Shown here piece by piece: positions 1 through 6,570 of a stretch of 64,000 nt of DNA. Position 1 is the stretch's first letter, and each line of letters starts with the position of its first letter. The notes below the pieces were generated by a model. It was given only the letters and a program-made list of their open reading frames with translations, was not told the origin of the DNA and searched no databases. The translations under genes and the position numbers were made by a program. The stretch is from Gemmatimonadota bacterium. GTDB lineage: Bacteria > Gemmatimonadota > Gemmatimonadetes > Gemmatimonadales > GWC2-71-9. The DNA is taken from NCBI GenBank assembly GCA_016874005.1, contig VGVQ01000005.1, positions 1 through 64,000 of the forward strand. Reading direction: 5' to 3'.

Positions 1-84
1 TACTACGACACCCTCCTTGGCCGCTTCGACGAACGCACCCACCTCATCACCGGGGCTCACTTCCGCAAGGAGAAGAAGTGTTAA
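1..84 (+). CDS. C-terminal tail of a probable IS transposase (partial at left edge)
   Basis: Reading frame 1 is open from the first base and ends at TAA (82-84), giving only 27 residues that end in a basic tail (HFRKEKKC). The residues themselves are not diagnostic. The reason to suspect a transposase is what follows: two 19-base direct repeats of the ATGTCCCCGG type overlap the stop codon and run to 122, an arrangement often seen at the ends of IS481-like and related DDE integrase elements. Most of the gene lies outside the window. It could instead be the end of any other ORF; family assignment is tentative. Confidence 0.35.
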   Translation, partial: YYDTLLGRFDERTHLITGAHFRKEKKC

Positions 85-124: not shown

Positions 125-1408
125 TCATTCGCTCGTCAGCGCGGCGCCGTACCGGCAGGCCGCCAGACCAACCGGGTCCGCCTTGGCGCACTCGCGAGTC
201 CGATCTTCGACCATCGGGAACAGCACGGCGATCTGTTCCCCGACGGCGACATAGCAGGCGGTTGCCACGGCCGGCTGGTCGTGGACCCGGGTGCAGAAGT
301 CGAGTCCGTCCTTGGGGACCGCGGTAACGTCGATGAAGTTCTTCACCACCCCGACGAAGCACCATGCTTTGTAGTCGGGGTGCCCCCGGTTGCAGTGACC
401 CTCGGATTTGGCCGGATCTCGGACCGTGAACCCGCTGACATAGGTACCGATGCCCTGATAGCAGGAGGGCCGCAGCCCGGGTGGGGCTTGATCGCACGCT
501 TTGGCGATCTTGCCGAAATCGGCCCCGGTGTTCTCGATGACGATGCCCGCCAACATGCCGTAGCAGGAGGCCTGATACTTGGGGCCAACCACCGAGCAGG
601 GAAAGAGGGGGTCATTCGGATCGCGGATGGGAAACGAGTCGGCGGGCTCGTGATGGGCGTGATCGTCGCCATGGTCGGTCGGCTTGGCGGCGGCGGTCTT
701 GCCGTGGGGATGGTGCGACTGGCCCCGCCCGGCGACGATGAACTCCATGAACGCCCCGCCGTAGCAGGAATTGGCGTCCCAGCCGTCGACGAGCCAATCG
801 CAGCCCGCCAATGCCTTGGGCAGGTGCAGCGAGGTATTCTGAACCAGTCCGTGCCCGATTCCGTGAACGCACTGGAACCGGAGCCACATGTTGGTGGTCG
901 CGGCCTTGATCAGGTTGCAGACCGAAGCGACGGTGGAGCTGTCGGTACCGTTGGCGTCGAGGTAGGCCTGGACGACTCCGTGGTAACAGCCGGACTGATA
1001 GAGACCGGTGCACGACTGGTACACCGCGCCGACATCGAGCCCCGGCTTCCAGCCGTTGATGCCGACCACGTGGGTCAGATCGTGACCGCGAGCCACCGTC
1101 CCGGGGTCGAGGCGGCCGAGGACGGAGAGGGCATCCATCGCCAGGCGGACCTGGCCTCGTTCCACCAGAGCGAGGAGGATTTCTTCGTAGCAGGCTTGCT
1201 GGCTCTTGCCGCGGACCAGCCGGCAACGGTTGTGGGCGAAGGTCGCGACCTCGAGCGAGTCCCCCCGGCGGGCCGGGCCGTCGAGCGCCGCCGCCAGCGG
1301 CAGCGGCGGCAGGCCCGGGATCTGGGCGCCCCGGGACCGCGCGAACGCAATCCCCACCGCGAGCAGCAGCCCGAGCCCCGCCAGTCCGAACACTATTCTC
1401 CGAGTCAT
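125..1408 (-). CDS. Membrane-anchored Cys-pair repeat protein with His-rich loop, function unknown
   Basis: This encodes 427 aa from the ATG at 1408; an upstream in-frame extension to 1468 looks like leader. Residues about 5-23 form one hydrophobic segment, so the bulk is probably periplasmic or extracellular. I do not recognise a named family. Nine Cys pairs recur: 62/73, 133/141, 164/180, 203/215, 271/282, 305/316, 339/350, 372/385 and 407/418. The second Cys is usually followed by an aromatic residue and then Gly (CYHG, CVHG, CYGG, CYGM, CYQG, CFVG). The second Cys of the last five pairs are 33-35 residues apart, the length of a TPR/Sel1-like helical hairpin. A His-rich insertion (about 232-254, with HHPHG and HAHHE) sits where one repeat is missing and could bind metal. 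A disulfide-stapled solenoid is my inference. Confidence 0.8.
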   Translation of the reverse strand: MTRRIVFGLAGLGLLLAVGIAFARSRGAQIPGLPPLPLAAALDGPARRGDSLEVATFAHNRCRLVRGKSQQACYEEILLALVERGQVRLAMDALSVLGRLDPGTVARGHDLTHVVGINGWKPGLDVGAVYQSCTGLYQSGCYHGVVQAYLDANGTDSSTVASVCNLIKAATTNMWLRFQCVHGIGHGLVQNTSLHLPKALAGCDWLVDGWDANSCYGGAFMEFIVAGRGQSHHPHGKTAAAKPTDHGDDHAHHEPADSFPIRDPNDPLFPCSVVGPKYQASCYGMLAGIVIENTGADFGKIAKACDQAPPGLRPSCYQGIGTYVSGFTVRDPAKSEGHCNRGHPDYKAWCFVGVVKNFIDVTAVPKDGLDFCTRVHDQPAVATACYVAVGEQIAVLFPMVEDRTRECAKADPVGLAACRYGAALTSE

Positions 1409-1513: not shown

Positions 1514-1798
1514 CTACTTCTTCTTGGGCGGCTTGCCGTTGCGCTGGACGGTCTTGAGCCAGGTCAGCGCCTTGTCGAAGGCCTTCTTCTTGCCGCCGTT
1601 GGAGGCATCGCCGAAGAACGCCGTGAACCGGGGCCGAGTGCCGCTCGGCGTTGGCCGGTAGCCGAAACGGCAAAACCACCCGAAAGTACGAGTCGAGGCC
1701 TGGTCGATACGGGAAATGCCGGGGACCTTGGAAACCGAGCGGCTGCGTGTGGCTGTCTTGGTAGTACGAGACCGGGTCGAAGTTCGACGAGTAGCCAT
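1514..1798 (-). CDS. Small AP2/ERF-like DNA-binding-domain protein
   Basis: This 94-aa protein has a basic Ser/Thr/Arg-rich N-terminus (residues 1-25), a compact domain (about 27-85) and a Lys-rich tail (PPKKK). The domain shows the bacterial AP2-like pattern: GISRID, then GWFCRF (strand with Trp and aromatic), then an FF-D-x4-GGKKKA turn, and a final amphipathic helix with ALTWL. AP2 domains bind DNA in plants and in bacterial homing endonucleases. Stand-alone bacterial copies of this size are usually uncharacterised. It is monocistronic, starts with an ATG at 1798, and faces the Cys-repeat gene across a hairpin. A nucleic-acid-binding role is inferred from the fold-like pattern only. Confidence 0.65.
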   Translation of the reverse strand: MATRRTSTRSRTTKTATRSRSVSKVPGISRIDQASTRTFGWFCRFGYRPTPSGTRPRFTAFFGDASNGGKKKAFDKALTWLKTVQRNGKPPKKK

Positions 1799-1971: not shown

Positions 1972-3942
1972 TCACCGGCGCCGGTGATCGCCCCGCAAAT
2001 GCCGGTCGAAGAACTCGGCGATGTCCAGGAGAACCTGTCGCGAGTTCTCCCGGCCAGTCACGTAATAGCTCTCGCCCGGGTAGGTCTTGAGCTGGACGAC
2101 CTTGTTGAGCCGATCGAGGGCGTGCGCGAACTCGAGCGACGCGGTAATTGGATACACTCCTGGACGCCAAACTTGGTCGAGGCCGGCGCCTTGAATGAGA
2201 AGGACGGGTGTGGTGACCCGATGGGCCGAGAAGATCGCCGAGTTCCGCCGGTAGACGGCCGCGCTATCGGGGTAGGGGCCCCACTCGTAGGCGTTGAGCT
2301 TGCTGTGCTGCAGCTCGGTGTTGTAGTCCTGGAAGCTGATCCAGTTGGCATAGCCGGATTGCGGCGCGGCCGCCCGAAACACACCCGGCGCGTGGGCCAC
2401 CGCGCCCATGCTCATGATCCCGCCGTAGCTGTTGCCGGTGATCCCCATGTTGGCGGTATCCACTCCGGGCAGCTTCTTGAGGTACTCGACGCCCGCGACC
2501 ACGTCCCGGAGATCGCAGTGGGTCCAGCAGGGGTTGTTGGCGTCCTCGAACGCCTTCCCGTACCCGGAGCTGCCGCGGATGTTCGGAGCCAGCACGAGGT
2601 AGCCGGCCCGGGCCAGGAACTGGGCCTGGGGGAGGTAGCTGTCGGCGAACTGGCTGGTCGGCCCGCCGTGGATGTACATCACCCCAGGGTACGGCTGGCC
2701 GGGCGTGCCGGCCGGCGGACGGAACAAGTAGCCGGAGATCGAGAGCTGGTCGCTTTGATAACGGATCTTCTCGGGGACCACCATGGTCCGCTCGATGGCG
2801 GGATCGATCGACTGGGTCAGCCGGATGGGTGCCGGGGCGGTCCCCGCCGCCGGCGCCGGCGCCACGAAGAGATCGTTAGGCGCCGTCGGGGTGCCGAACA
2901 GGTAGGCCAGCTTGCTGCCGTCGGGCGACCATTCCGGCGCGCTCGCGAGGCCGTGACGGGCCCCCCCCGAGCCGTCCGACGCCACCCCACGGCTTTGGGT
3001 CACCGCGGTGGGATGGTCGAGCCGAATCGCGGTCCCTCCCGCCACCGGCGCGATCACGATCCGCTGGGTGCCGTCGTCGATCGAGGCGAACGCGACCCGG
3101 CTGCCGTCGGGAGACCAGCGAGCGTCGCTCTGATCGGCTGCCTCCGCCGCGAGCGGTCGGGCCGCCCCCCCCCCCCCGGGCGGGGCCCGCCCGACGTTGA
3201 TCCAGCCGCTCCGATGGGATTTGAAGAGCACCTGCTTCCCGTCCGGGGACACCAGCGGATACCCCATCTTCGATCGGGTCCCGATCGTGCCATAGTCGAA
3301 GAGATCGCGATCGGACGCCACCAGCCGGGACTCGCCACCGGTCACCGAGATCGCCATCAGGTCGTGATCGGCCCAGCGATCGTCGGAGCGCCAGTAGTAG
3401 AGCGTCCGGCCGTCGGGGGCCCAGGCTGGGGAGGTCTCGAATCGGGGATCGCTCGTTAGGCGGCGCGCCCGACCCGAGGCGACCTCGACCAGGTAAACGT
3501 CGAACTGGCCGAACAGGAGGGCCGACAGCGCGATCGTTCGGCCGTCCGGCGACCACGAGAAGGCGTTGATCCGCGCCCCCAAGTCGGTGAGCCGCCGCTC
3601 GCTGGCGTCCGCCACGGTCCACAGCCAGATCTCCGGGTTACCGCTCTTGTCGCTCAGATAGGCGAACTGCCCGCCACTGGGCGACAGACGAACCAGGCCG
3701 GTCGCTACCTCGCGAGCCACCCGCGTCGCGGTCCCCCCTCCGGCCGGGACCGACCAGATCCCGCCGAGCGACGAGCCGAAATAGATCCGTTGGCCGTCCG
3801 GAGCCCAGATCGGGCCCTCACCCGCCAGCAGCGAGCCGACGGCCGTCACCCGGTCGGCGAGGACCGGAAGCGAGGACTCCTGGGCCAGGAGCGCCACGGC
3901 GCCGGTGCCGCCGAGTGCCGCGGCCAGCAGGAGGCGTCTCAT
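1972..3942 (-). CDS. Secreted S9-family peptidase-like protein (TolB propeller + alpha/beta hydrolase), degenerate triad
   Basis: The product is 656 aa. It has a signal peptide (residues 1-20, cut near LLA|QESS), then PD40/TolB-type beta-propeller repeats (several SPDGR/WAPDGQ motifs, about 30-390), then a C-terminal alpha/beta-hydrolase domain with the HGGP oxyanion motif, RGSSGYG and nucleophile motif GNSYGG (Ser about 505). The usual G-x-x-D-D-x-V segment is GAGLDQV, with Leu at the expected Asp position, and the usual GEGH is GESYY, so the His is replaced. It may be a pseudo-peptidase or use other residues. The start codon overlaps the upstream paralog's stop by ATGA, so the two are translationally coupled. 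The gene contains a run of 13 C (G on the coding strand) at 3165-3177. Confidence 0.9.
   Translation of the reverse strand: MRRLLLAAALGGTGAVALLAQESSLPVLADRVTAVGSLLAGEGPIWAPDGQRIYFGSSLGGIWSVPAGGGTATRVAREVATGLVRLSPSGGQFAYLSDKSGNPEIWLWTVADASERRLTDLGARINAFSWSPDGRTIALSALLFGQFDVYLVEVASGRARRLTSDPRFETSPAWAPDGRTLYYWRSDDRWADHDLMAISVTGGESRLVASDRDLFDYGTIGTRSKMGYPLVSPDGKQVLFKSHRSGWINVGRAPPGGGGAARPLAAEAADQSDARWSPDGSRVAFASIDDGTQRIVIAPVAGGTAIRLDHPTAVTQSRGVASDGSGGARHGLASAPEWSPDGSKLAYLFGTPTAPNDLFVAPAPAAGTAPAPIRLTQSIDPAIERTMVVPEKIRYQSDQLSISGYLFRPPAGTPGQPYPGVMYIHGGPTSQFADSYLPQAQFLARAGYLVLAPNIRGSSGYGKAFEDANNPCWTHCDLRDVVAGVEYLKKLPGVDTANMGITGNSYGGIMSMGAVAHAPGVFRAAAPQSGYANWISFQDYNTELQHSKLNAYEWGPYPDSAAVYRRNSAIFSAHRVTTPVLLIQGAGLDQVWRPGVYPITASLEFAHALDRLNKVVQLKTYPGESYYVTGRENSRQVLLDIAEFFDRHLRGDHRRR
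3165..3177. repeat. Homopolymer C13 inside an S9 peptidase gene
   Basis: Thirteen consecutive C (13 G on the coding strand) encode a Gly run in the propeller domain (APPGGGGAARPL). The neighbouring paralog has APIAGGSARPV there without a homopolymer. The frame is intact at this length, but slippage of one base would truncate the protein. Confidence 0.9.
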
Positions 3943-5873
3943 CGACCGCTCCCGGTGGCAACGCCAGTGCGTCCGGGTTCCTGGTCCTTCAAGTACCGGT
4001 CGAAGAAGTCGAGCATGTCGAGAAACATCTGGCGTTGGTTGGGGAGGCTGTTCACGTAGTAGTTCTCATTGGGATAGGTCTGATAGCGAAACACCTTGTA
4101 GTGGCGCTCCAGCTCGTCGGCGAATTTCTTCGAGGCCTGGGAATTGGGGAACCGGCCGGTTCCATGGAGGAGCATTACCGGGGTCTGGACTCGACCGATG
4201 CTGAAGTACGGGGACGATCGCCGGTAGATCGCCTCGGTGGCCGCCGACAAGGGCCCGAACTCGTAGTCGAGGAGCTTGACGTGGCGGTACTCCTGCTCGG
4301 TGTAGAAATCGAGCCAGTCGCCGTACCCCGCCCCCGCGACCGCCGCCTGGAAGTAGCCAGGCGCGAAGGCGATCGCCGAAAGCGTCATGCAGCCGCCGTA
4401 GCTCGTCCCGGTGATCCCGAGCCGCTCGCCGTTTACGTAGGAAAGGCGTTTGAGATACTCGGCGCCGGCCTTCACGTCGTCGAGGTCGCCGTGCCCCCAA
4501 TCCTTGTTGTTCGCGTCTTCGAAGGCGCGCCCGTACCCCGAGCTGCCTCGGATGTTCGGCAGCAACACCACGTATCCTTGCTGCACGAAAAACTGGACTT
4601 GGGCCTGGTAGGTGTCGCTGAACTGGGCGGTCGGCCCCCCATGGATGTACAGCAGCGCCGGCAGCCGTTCTCCTGGCGCGATGGTGGCGGGCCGGTACAG
4701 GTAGGCGTTGATCTCGAACGAGCCGCTTTGATAACTGATCTTTTCCGGCGCGACGATCGACCGGACGATGTTCCCGCCCGGTACCGAATTGGTGAGCCGC
4801 CGAGGCGGGCCGCCGCTGGCCGCCACCAGATAGAGATCGGCGGCCTCGGTGGGTGACCCCAATGTGTAGGCGATCCGGGTCCCGTCCGGCGACCAGGCCG
4901 GGTTGGCGACCGTCCCGGCCCCGGTCGGGGCGACCAGGACCCGTGGGGTCCCGCCGGCCGCGGCCACGGTTCGAAGGTCCTGGGTCCCGTTCCGGTTGGC
5001 GAGATAGGCGATCGACTTGCCGTCCGGCGACCACCGCGCCGAGCTTTGGTCGGCGGATTCGGGAGCCACCGGCCGGGCCGAGCCCCCCGCGATCGGCGCG
5101 ACCCAGTAGTTGATCCACCCGCTCCGGTGGGAACGGAACATCACCCAGCGTCCGTCCGGCGACACCATCGGGTATCCGAAGGTCCGGCCGGCCCCGTAGT
5201 CGAAAAAGTCCGTGTCGCGGGTCACCAGCCGCCCGGTCCCGCCAGTTGCCGGGATCGCCATGATGTCGTGGTCGACCCAGCGATCGTCGAGCTGGACATA
5301 GAGGATGGTGCGGCCATCGGGGCTGTACGACGGGAACACCTCGTACCGGCCGTCGGTGGTCAACCTGGTCACCTGGCCGTTAGGTACCGCCACGCTCCAG
5401 ATGTCGTAGGACCCGTACCGGTCGCCGGCGAAGGCGATCGACCGGCCGTCCGGCGCCCACGACATCGAGTTGATCCGGGTCTGGCCGAGTCGGGTCAGCT
5501 GGAGGTCGCGACCGTCCTTCGGCGACCAGATCCAGATCTCGGTGGCGCCGCTCTTGCCCGAGGCATAGGCGATCCACTCGCCGGTGGGGCTGTATTGCGG
5601 CATGTAATTCGACTGATACGGGACCGTGCCGAGATTGGGCACCAGCCGGGTCGGGAAGCCGCCCTCCGCTCCGACGGCCCACAGCCCCGACCCTCCGCCA
5701 AGGCTCGACTGGAACATGATGGTCGAGCCGTCGGGGCTCCATTCGGGCTGTTCACCGCCGACCGCCGACCGGATCGAAAGGACCTGATCCGCCGAAACGG
5801 AGGGACTTGGCTTGGGCTGAGCGGCGAGGGAGCTGGCGAGCACGGCGACGAAAGCGCCTGCGTGGCGGACCAT
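3939..5873 (-). CDS. Secreted S9-family peptidase-like protein, paralog of the downstream gene, degenerate triad
   Basis: Translation is taken from the ATG at 5873, giving 644 aa with a signal peptide (MVRHAGAFVAVLASSLAAQ); the open frame to 6065 is an unsupported extension. Domain order matches its neighbour: propeller repeats (PEWSPDGSTI, WAPDGRS, WSPDGKS), then hydrolase with YIHGGP, RGSSGYG and GTSYGG (nucleophile Ser about 491). The Asp segment is LLHGTGRFPNSQ, without Asp. The His segment is YPNENYYVN, without His. Both genes share the distinctive xENYYV/ESYYV ending, so loss of the triad is a subfamily trait rather than a local mutation. Adjacent tandem copies with an ATGA overlap point to duplication within one operon. 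Confidence 0.9.
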   Translation of the reverse strand: MVRHAGAFVAVLASSLAAQPKPSPSVSADQVLSIRSAVGGEQPEWSPDGSTIMFQSSLGGGSGLWAVGAEGGFPTRLVPNLGTVPYQSNYMPQYSPTGEWIAYASGKSGATEIWIWSPKDGRDLQLTRLGQTRINSMSWAPDGRSIAFAGDRYGSYDIWSVAVPNGQVTRLTTDGRYEVFPSYSPDGRTILYVQLDDRWVDHDIMAIPATGGTGRLVTRDTDFFDYGAGRTFGYPMVSPDGRWVMFRSHRSGWINYWVAPIAGGSARPVAPESADQSSARWSPDGKSIAYLANRNGTQDLRTVAAAGGTPRVLVAPTGAGTVANPAWSPDGTRIAYTLGSPTEAADLYLVAASGGPPRRLTNSVPGGNIVRSIVAPEKISYQSGSFEINAYLYRPATIAPGERLPALLYIHGGPTAQFSDTYQAQVQFFVQQGYVVLLPNIRGSSGYGRAFEDANNKDWGHGDLDDVKAGAEYLKRLSYVNGERLGITGTSYGGCMTLSAIAFAPGYFQAAVAGAGYGDWLDFYTEQEYRHVKLLDYEFGPLSAATEAIYRRSSPYFSIGRVQTPVMLLHGTGRFPNSQASKKFADELERHYKVFRYQTYPNENYYVNSLPNQRQMFLDMLDFFDRYLKDQEPGRTGVATGSGR

Positions 5874-5940
5874 GGGATCCTCGAGTTGTTGGGCGCGGGT
5901 CAAGTCTACCGCCCGACGGGCGGGATCCGCGAGGGCGGCC

Positions 5941-6570
5941 TCAGAGATCGACGACGATCGGCGAGTTGATCGGGCGATAGCCGAGGTCGCAAACCGCCGC
6001 GTTGACGAAGGTGCGCCGGCCCTGCCGCACGGTACCGTAGCCCTCGTGAATGTGGCCGAAGACATGAACTCGGAGGCGTTGCAGCTGCCCGATCCGTTCG
6101 GCCAGGGCTTCGCATCCCACCGGCTCGCCCCGGGCGGTGCGGTCGAGGATCCCCTCCGGCGGGCCGTGGGTGATCAGCACCTCGGTGTCGTCGGGAATCA
6201 AAGCCCATTTCGCCGCGATCTCGGTACCGCGCTCGAGGTTGAAAGCCCAATCGTAGAACCACGGCTGCCATGGCGATCCCCAGAAGGAAACCCCCGCCAA
6301 GGTCACGCCGCTGTCGAGCAGATACTCGACGCCCGATGGCACCAGCCGGCTCGCGAGGGCCCGGTCGCGCTCGAGCCCGAAATCATGGTTGCCCGCGATC
6401 ACCAACTTGTTCCCGTGCGGTTGGTCGCCGAACCAGCGGAAGAACTCGGCCAGCTGATCCGGGGTGCCGGCGTTGGAGACGTCACCGGCGTGGATCAGCA
6501 CGTCGCCAGCCGGAAGCGGGGCGAGCTCGCGGTGCAACCCATGAGTGTCGCTGATCAGGACCAGTCGCAA
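5941..6570 (-). CDS. Calcineurin-like metallophosphoesterase
   Basis: The ORF encodes 209 aa and starts most plausibly at the TTG at 6570, because the conserved first strand begins directly there (LRLVLISDTHG) and the longer ATG frame to 6747 adds Arg-rich antisense-type sequence. Metal-binding motifs appear in the usual order: D-T-H (SDTHG, about 9-12), GDV (HAGDVSN), GNHD (IAGNHDFG), H (ITHGPPEG) and GH-x-H (VFGHIHEGYG). The family hydrolyses phosphoesters with a dinuclear metal centre; this compact form resembles YfcE/MJ0936-like and MPPED-like phosphodiesterases. The substrate cannot be told. The TTG lies four bases after the preceding gene's TAG, so it is translationally coupled. Confidence 0.88.
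   Translation of the reverse strand: MRLVLISDTHGLHRELAPLPAGDVLIHAGDVSNAGTPDQLAEFFRWFGDQPHGNKLVIAGNHDFGLERDRALASRLVPSGVEYLLDSGVTLAGVSFWGSPWQPWFYDWAFNLERGTEIAAKWALIPDDTEVLITHGPPEGILDRTARGEPVGCEALAERIGQLQRLRVHVFGHIHEGYGTVRQGRRTFVNAAVCDLGYRPINSPIVVDL

Follow-up and report, generated by a model that had tools for sequence, protein, structure and literature searches.

A helical-repeat protein family with paired cysteines, five invariant histidines and a putative metal site in Gemmatimonadota and Nitrospira

A Cys- and His-rich protein gene at a contig end

The stretch of DNA analysed here (the window) comprises the opening 64 kb of contig C5 in a Gemmatimonadota genome of 3.88 Mb and 49 contigs. 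At positions 125–1408 (minus strand, stop codon included) it carries a gene for a 427-residue Cys/His alpha-solenoid protein, P0001, defined by the open reading frame (ORF) call and by its relatives. About 120 bases lie between the end of the gene and that of the contig, and its own genome carries a single copy. Near relatives in a 28-sequence alignment open with MxRK as P0001 does, which makes 1408 the probable start. The contig start itself (1–82, plus strand) lies inside a short frame with the end YYDTLLGRFDERTHLITGAHFRKEKKC, which may be another gene's tail or the end of a mobile element.

Upstream of the gene and in the same direction are a 94-residue Arg/Lys-rich ORF (1514–1798, minus strand) and two tandem S9-type peptidase-like genes (1972–3942 and 3939–6065, minus strand). 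In the closely related loci L125, L127, L031, L032 and L033, the family gene again has the small ORF and one or more S9 genes beside it, and this arrangement recurs within the genus of the source genome; the pairing was absent from the more distant loci searched. In Nitrospira, the family gene is syntenic with housekeeping genes. A comparison across the family loci revealed no conserved, functionally telling partner outside single lineages, and metal-handling genes near family genes amounted to single cases at most. Neighbour genes were accordingly set aside as uninformative about function.

The N-terminal 25 residues (1334–1408, minus strand) form a hydrophobic segment that, by sequence and model, would be a signal peptide or a membrane anchor; residues 2–25 are a helix in the AlphaFold2 model. 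A strict lipobox expression matched the N terminus of 6 of 28 relatives, and some further ones show a Cys after a similar segment. These matches and the hydrophobic N terminus make export likely, the product being probably exported, membrane-anchored or lipid-anchored. Elsewhere in the same genome, a VKOR gene (C14, 8670–9050; L157) sits beside a DsbA-like gene (C14, 9130–9564; L158). The two genes, at C14 8670–9564, are likely the oxidative folding pair of the organism, and their adjacency makes extracytoplasmic disulfide formation plausible.

Paired cysteines along a predicted helical solenoid

P0001 contains 18 Cys residues that form nine neighbouring pairs (62/73, 133/141, 164/180, 203/215, 271/282, 305/316, 339/350, 372/385 and 407/418), with a within-pair distance of 8–16 residues in all nine. 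From the first Cys of one pair to the first Cys of the next, the steps are 71, 31, 39, 68, 34, 34, 33 and 35 residues. We compared this arrangement with 20,000 random placements of the Cys residues: none produced nine neighbouring pairs 8–16 residues apart, and the nine Cys–Cys distances of 33–35 residues contrast with a mean of 2.0 by chance (P = 0.00015). The nine pairs and the 33–35-residue period reported in a preliminary description of this DNA are thus real features of the sequence. The pairs are not confined to the C-terminal half, as had been stated there, but span residues 62–418, with four of the nine in the N-terminal half. The aromatic-x-Gly said to follow each pair is found after four of the nine; an aromatic residue directly follows the second Cys in seven pairs and a Gly stands at Cys+3 in six. 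There is no CXXCH motif in the P0001 sequence, and a haem c protein was rejected on this ground.

All 18 Cys are invariant in the 28-row alignment A1, in which the 27 relatives are 34–63% identical to P0001 (L021, with a cut start, and L013, in which no start was found, were omitted). Among 90 distinct sequences, each Cys is present in all rows having the column, or in all but one. In the 46-row diverse set A2, residues C164, C180, C203, C215, C271, C282, C305, C316, C339, C350, C372 and C385 remain invariant, C133, C141, C407 and C418 are conserved at 90% or more, and several divergent members are without the first pair (62/73).

AlphaFold2 prediction from the 28-row alignment returned an all-helical model (pLDDT 91.0, pTM 0.87) of repeated hairpins, in line with the helical-hairpin solenoid proposed in the preliminary description; pLDDT values under 50 were limited to residues 235–254. 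Each repeat in the model is a short helix followed by a long one. The second Cys occupies position 7 of the next helix in seven of the nine pairs, and the first Cys is the final residue of the short helix in five of the nine. Judged from these helix positions, each hairpin is likely stapled by its own disulfide, nine in total. The model and the Cys analysis place hairpin 1 at residues 51–83 (1160–1258, minus strand; Cys pair 62/73), and the model and alignments place C-terminal repeats with five Cys pairs at residues 266–421 (146–613, minus strand). A profile comparison of the N- and C-terminal halves aligned them in register over 87 columns (probability 74%, pairwise E 2.7e-05), which supports an internal duplication. 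Modelled alone from 46 rows, the domain of residues 46–232 gave pLDDT 95.8 and pTM 0.91 with a near-identical order of helices.

Foldseek searches with the full model against PDB and BFVD, and with the 46–232 domain against PDB, yielded no match with E at or below 0.001. The best VIA-align match was a designed helical-repeat protein both for the full model (Z 8.3, rmsd 3.7, 123 residues aligned) and for the domain (Z 7.9, rmsd 4.0, 150 residues aligned); many of the weak Foldseek matches of the domain were TPR proteins. Among the Foldseek and VIA-align matches listed there was no metalloprotein fold, nor any of Hcp, COA7 and deoxyhypusine hydroxylase, three proteins considered below. The designed-repeat and TPR matches are what one would expect if P0001 were a generic alpha-solenoid, that is, a TPR- or Sel1-type scaffold for peptides or proteins in which Cys and His serve packing only and a His-rich loop (residues 228–265) is a passive linker. 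That the C-terminal repeats are without the invariant His described next also favours such a scaffold.

Five invariant histidines on neighbouring long helices

Models and alignments delimit a histidine-site region at residues 103–227 (728–1102, minus strand), which contains the Cys pairs 133/141, 164/180 and 203/215. In the model, its long helices are four consecutive ones: 103–119, which bears H109-x3-H113; 140–153, with H143 and Q147; 174–191, with H182-x3-H186; and 209–227, with M221-E222. The five His, encoded on the minus strand at 1082–1084 (His109), 1070–1072 (His113), 980–982 (His143), 863–865 (His182) and 851–853 (His186), are each invariant in 46 of 46 representatives and in 90 of 90 distinct sequences. 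Met221 and Glu222 (743–748, minus strand) are conserved in 46 of 46 and 45 of 46 representatives, respectively, with Gln replacing Glu222 in one; at position 147, 38 of the 46 have Gln and 7 have Glu. The 46 representatives of A2 are diverse, with identities down to 26%, and the five His are the feature that persists at the greatest divergence in the family. Most of them are flanked by Gly.

The resulting pattern, HxxxH / HG / HxxGH / M[EQ], is present in all 109 non-redundant family sequences (exact duplicates and matched regions shorter than 280 residues having been removed), as well as in four distant proteins found by profile search (L148, L149, L150 and L153). Among 2,728 mechanically called neighbour ORFs it occurs once, in the tandem second copy of the family gene in L045. 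The residues also recur at equivalent places in the hairpins: in hairpins 3 and 4, a His stands two residues past the second Cys (+2), and Gln/Glu147, His186 and Met221 stand at +6 in hairpins 3, 4 and 5, respectively, while hairpin 2, which has no Cys, carries the same H-x3-H. These recurrent +2 and +6 positions suggest that ligand-type residues are arranged in two stripes on neighbouring long helices.

We consider it likely, from sequence conservation, that the five scattered His form a functional centre, which the preliminary description had missed. Invariance of the His alone can be compatible with a packing role, as the TPR- or Sel1-type scaffold would have it. What speaks against that scaffold is that binding grooves tend to vary, whereas here, at an overall identity of 26%, the five His and Met221 do not change and Glu222 hardly does. 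We regard the scaffold as distinctly improbable.

A second possibility is a dinuclear metalloenzyme, an oxygenase or a hydrolase, whose scaffold would be a helical repeat as in deoxyhypusine hydroxylase. That enzyme has HE motifs, which differ from the ligand pattern of P0001, and is not known to carry disulfide staples. The six to seven conserved residues of ligand type that adjacent helices carry would be enough for two metals, and there is a precedent in deoxyhypusine hydroxylase, for which the source, in the part available to us, describes a dinuclear iron site on HEAT repeats (PMC4682802). The likeness to P0001 would lie in a helical-repeat scaffold that carries a metal site, putative in P0001. 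No sequence match links the two, however: HEAT or HE-motif profiles had no Pfam match in P0001 or the scanned members, and none was found among PDB sequences. Deoxyhypusine hydroxylase was also missing from the fold matches listed, and the neighbouring genes suggest no substrate or pathway. Such an enzyme is a rather poor prospect.

A variable His-rich loop beside the site

Between the histidine-site region and the C-terminal repeats lies the His-rich loop (residues 228–265; 614–727, minus strand), predicted to be disordered and recognized by its low pLDDT and its variable span. Measured between the columns of residues 226 and 262, it ranges from 13 to 78 residues and from 0 to 15 His in the 46 representatives, and some members have a short loop or one that lacks His. 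The His content is 16.1% in the loop versus 3.2% in the core, a fivefold enrichment, and the Met content 4.4% versus 2.3%; the loop is without Cys. His is found at position 232 in 36 and at position 233 in 38 of the 46 representatives. MDH-type (M/D/H) motifs occur in the loops of 10 of the 46 members, versus 3.1 expected from shuffles.

The preliminary description had a His-rich insertion interrupt the array exactly where one repeat is missing. The loop does fall within a double spacing (203 to 271, 68 residues), but there is a second double spacing (62 to 133, 71 residues), and that gap holds a Cys-less hairpin, with helices 87–100 and 103–119, which bears the HxxxH. Given a span of 13–78 residues across the family, the fit to the length of one repeat is a coincidence of this member. 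On the alignments, the loop reads as an accessory and not as a family signature.

In the subfamily L111 to L117, Cys141 is replaced by Tyr, a new Cys stands shortly before His109 and little remains of the His-rich loop, with the five His kept. From the aligned sequences, we interpret this as disulfide rewiring around a fixed His site.

Distribution of the family

Within its own phylum, Gemmatimonadota, the family matched 67 of 298 sampled genomes (the source genome included) in 23 of 119 genera. One scan of an 84,980-species collection confirmed 131 loci, and the analysis retained the best 80. These best 80 of 131 come mainly from Gemmatimonadetes and then from Nitrospirales and Nitrospira, the complete Candidatus Nitrospira defluvii genome among them. 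An A2 search of the phylum of N. defluvii matched 14 of 148 genomes, the seed counted, three of them by divergent members only; in the phylum of a gammaproteobacterial MAG, the same search matched 1 of 299 genomes, the seed itself. No relatives were found in viral contigs or phages, and a viral origin of the family was rejected on this basis. The sole match in a plasmid collection was a 1.1-Mb replicon of Gemmatirosa kalamazoonensis.

In a tree of 59 of the 109 sequences, those in named genome-contig loci, the Nitrospira and Gemmatimonadota groups are separated with full support. A Nitrospiraceae MAG (L048) falls among Gemmatimonadota and a 'Nitrosospira' MAG (L109) inside Nitrospira, placements that make transfer or mislabelled bins possible. 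A tandem duplication of the family gene is found at L045 9905–12710, in a Gemmatimonadaceae genome (the genome of L018). Very divergent Cys-rich proteins that bear the His motif are encoded at L153 6670–8157, L149 1063–2202, L148 1384–2373 and L150 3–812; by gene names assigned by eye, L153 sits behind exopolysaccharide-type genes and L149 beside a FecR-like gene. The sequences of these four proteins suggest a wider superfamily.

Relation to described families and architectures

Profile scans of P0001 and its relatives against Pfam, NCBIfam and PHROGs identified no credible family, with 0 Pfam matches for P0001 at E up to 10; DUF5632 on L150 was sub-threshold (E 0.00097, 19.5 bits versus a cut-off of 25). 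PDB sequences gave chance matches only, and profile A2 gave 0 at E up to 10. Pfam Sel1 matched neither P0001 (E up to 10) nor the 28 members nor 8 divergent or Nitrospira members, and it was not among the 10 weak families returned for the 28. TPR profiles gave no match to P0001 at E up to 10, and TPR_14 appeared in 1 of the 28 members at E 0.41. Term searches of an open-access literature collection listed nothing on the family or its combination of features.

As an architecture, disulfide-stapled helical repeats have been described before. Hcp proteins (HcpB and HcpC, Helicobacter cysteine-rich proteins) are, according to the available part of PMC3851747, exported Sel1-like alpha-helical hairpin repeats bridged by disulfides, with Sel1-like repeats usually of 36–38 residues. 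They resemble P0001 in its likely export, in hairpins of similar length and in the disulfide cross-links predicted for it. They differ in repeat length (36–38 versus about 34 residues) and in the five-His site and His-rich loop of P0001, which do not appear in the part of the Hcp description available to us; no sequence match joins the P0001 family to PDB chains or to Pfam Sel1. In COA7, which is an assembly factor for cytochrome oxidase in mitochondria and has a solved structure (7MQZ), five disulfides tether the five helix-turn-helix repeats (PMC12114033), and paired Cys are nine or eleven residues apart (PMC6505684), as far as these sources were available. The likeness lies in hairpin repeats with one disulfide each, predicted in P0001, and in Cys spaced 8–11 residues apart. 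Unlike P0001, COA7 is eukaryotic, has five disulfides versus the nine predicted here and, in the available part of its description, no His-rich loop, and profile A2 matched it in PDB sequences at no E up to 10. The earlier assertion that no described family has this pattern thus holds for Pfam, NCBIfam, PHROGs and PDB sequences but not for the architecture: with the stapled repeats of Hcp and COA7 on record and no sequence match to either, P0001 is undescribed only among the sequence families searched.

COA7 has been presented as haem-binding and as reducing disulfides in copper chaperones, in the portion of a review available to us (PMC9163361). A protein of that sort here would be a disulfide-stapled haem binder for the redox maturation of exported respiratory proteins. 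The architecture is of the same kind, at least in the COA7 descriptions available, and the invariant His and Met of P0001 could be axial ligands; yet profile A2 matched no PDB chain at E up to 10, P0001 lacks the CXXCH motif of haem c, no consistent respiratory genes lie nearby and the number of His, five, points beyond one axial pair. We hold a COA7-like role to be unlikely.

A putative metal site on a predicted stapled solenoid

Beyond the family itself, its repeat pattern, its invariant residues and its predicted fold, we infer metal binding. In our judgement, the chances are about even that P0001 is an exported alpha-solenoid that binds a metal or a metal cofactor, with the site on one helix face of the stapled hairpins. 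In such a protein, hairpins 2 to 5 would set their long helices side by side, presenting the stripes 109/143/182 (His, His, His) and 113/147/186/221 (His, Gln or Glu, His, Met) one helical turn apart; both stripes, together with Glu222, could then make one or two metal sites. The nine predicted disulfides would keep neighbouring helices in register so that ligands of four hairpins meet. The disordered His/Met/Asp-rich arm, which begins six residues past Glu222, might capture metal and hand it over to the site. As to the metal, we would guess copper, given a protein exported into oxidising surroundings, ligands of the His and Met type and the MDH-type loop motifs; since the M/D/H motif occurs in only 10 of the 46 members and the loop is short or His-less in some, the case for copper is a weak one. 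A bolder proposal, which we put forward as a doubtful but not negligible one, is that P0001 belongs to an undescribed superfamily of exported metalloenzymes in Gemmatimonadota and Nitrospira, with a one- or two-metal site of five His, Met and Glu that is built from four adjoining helices of the stapled solenoid and fed by the mobile arm.

What was known is the stapled helical-repeat architecture; what is new is the sequence family and a plausible, putative metal site. The family is widespread in Gemmatimonadota and present in Nitrospira, yet absent from the protein-family libraries searched. Because the searches tied the family by sequence to neither Hcp nor COA7, disulfide-stapled solenoids may have more than one evolutionary origin, which would be useful for protein design. 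If the His site does bind metal, the exact residues for mutation are named here, and disulfide-pinned helical repeats would be an added type of scaffold for exported metalloproteins.
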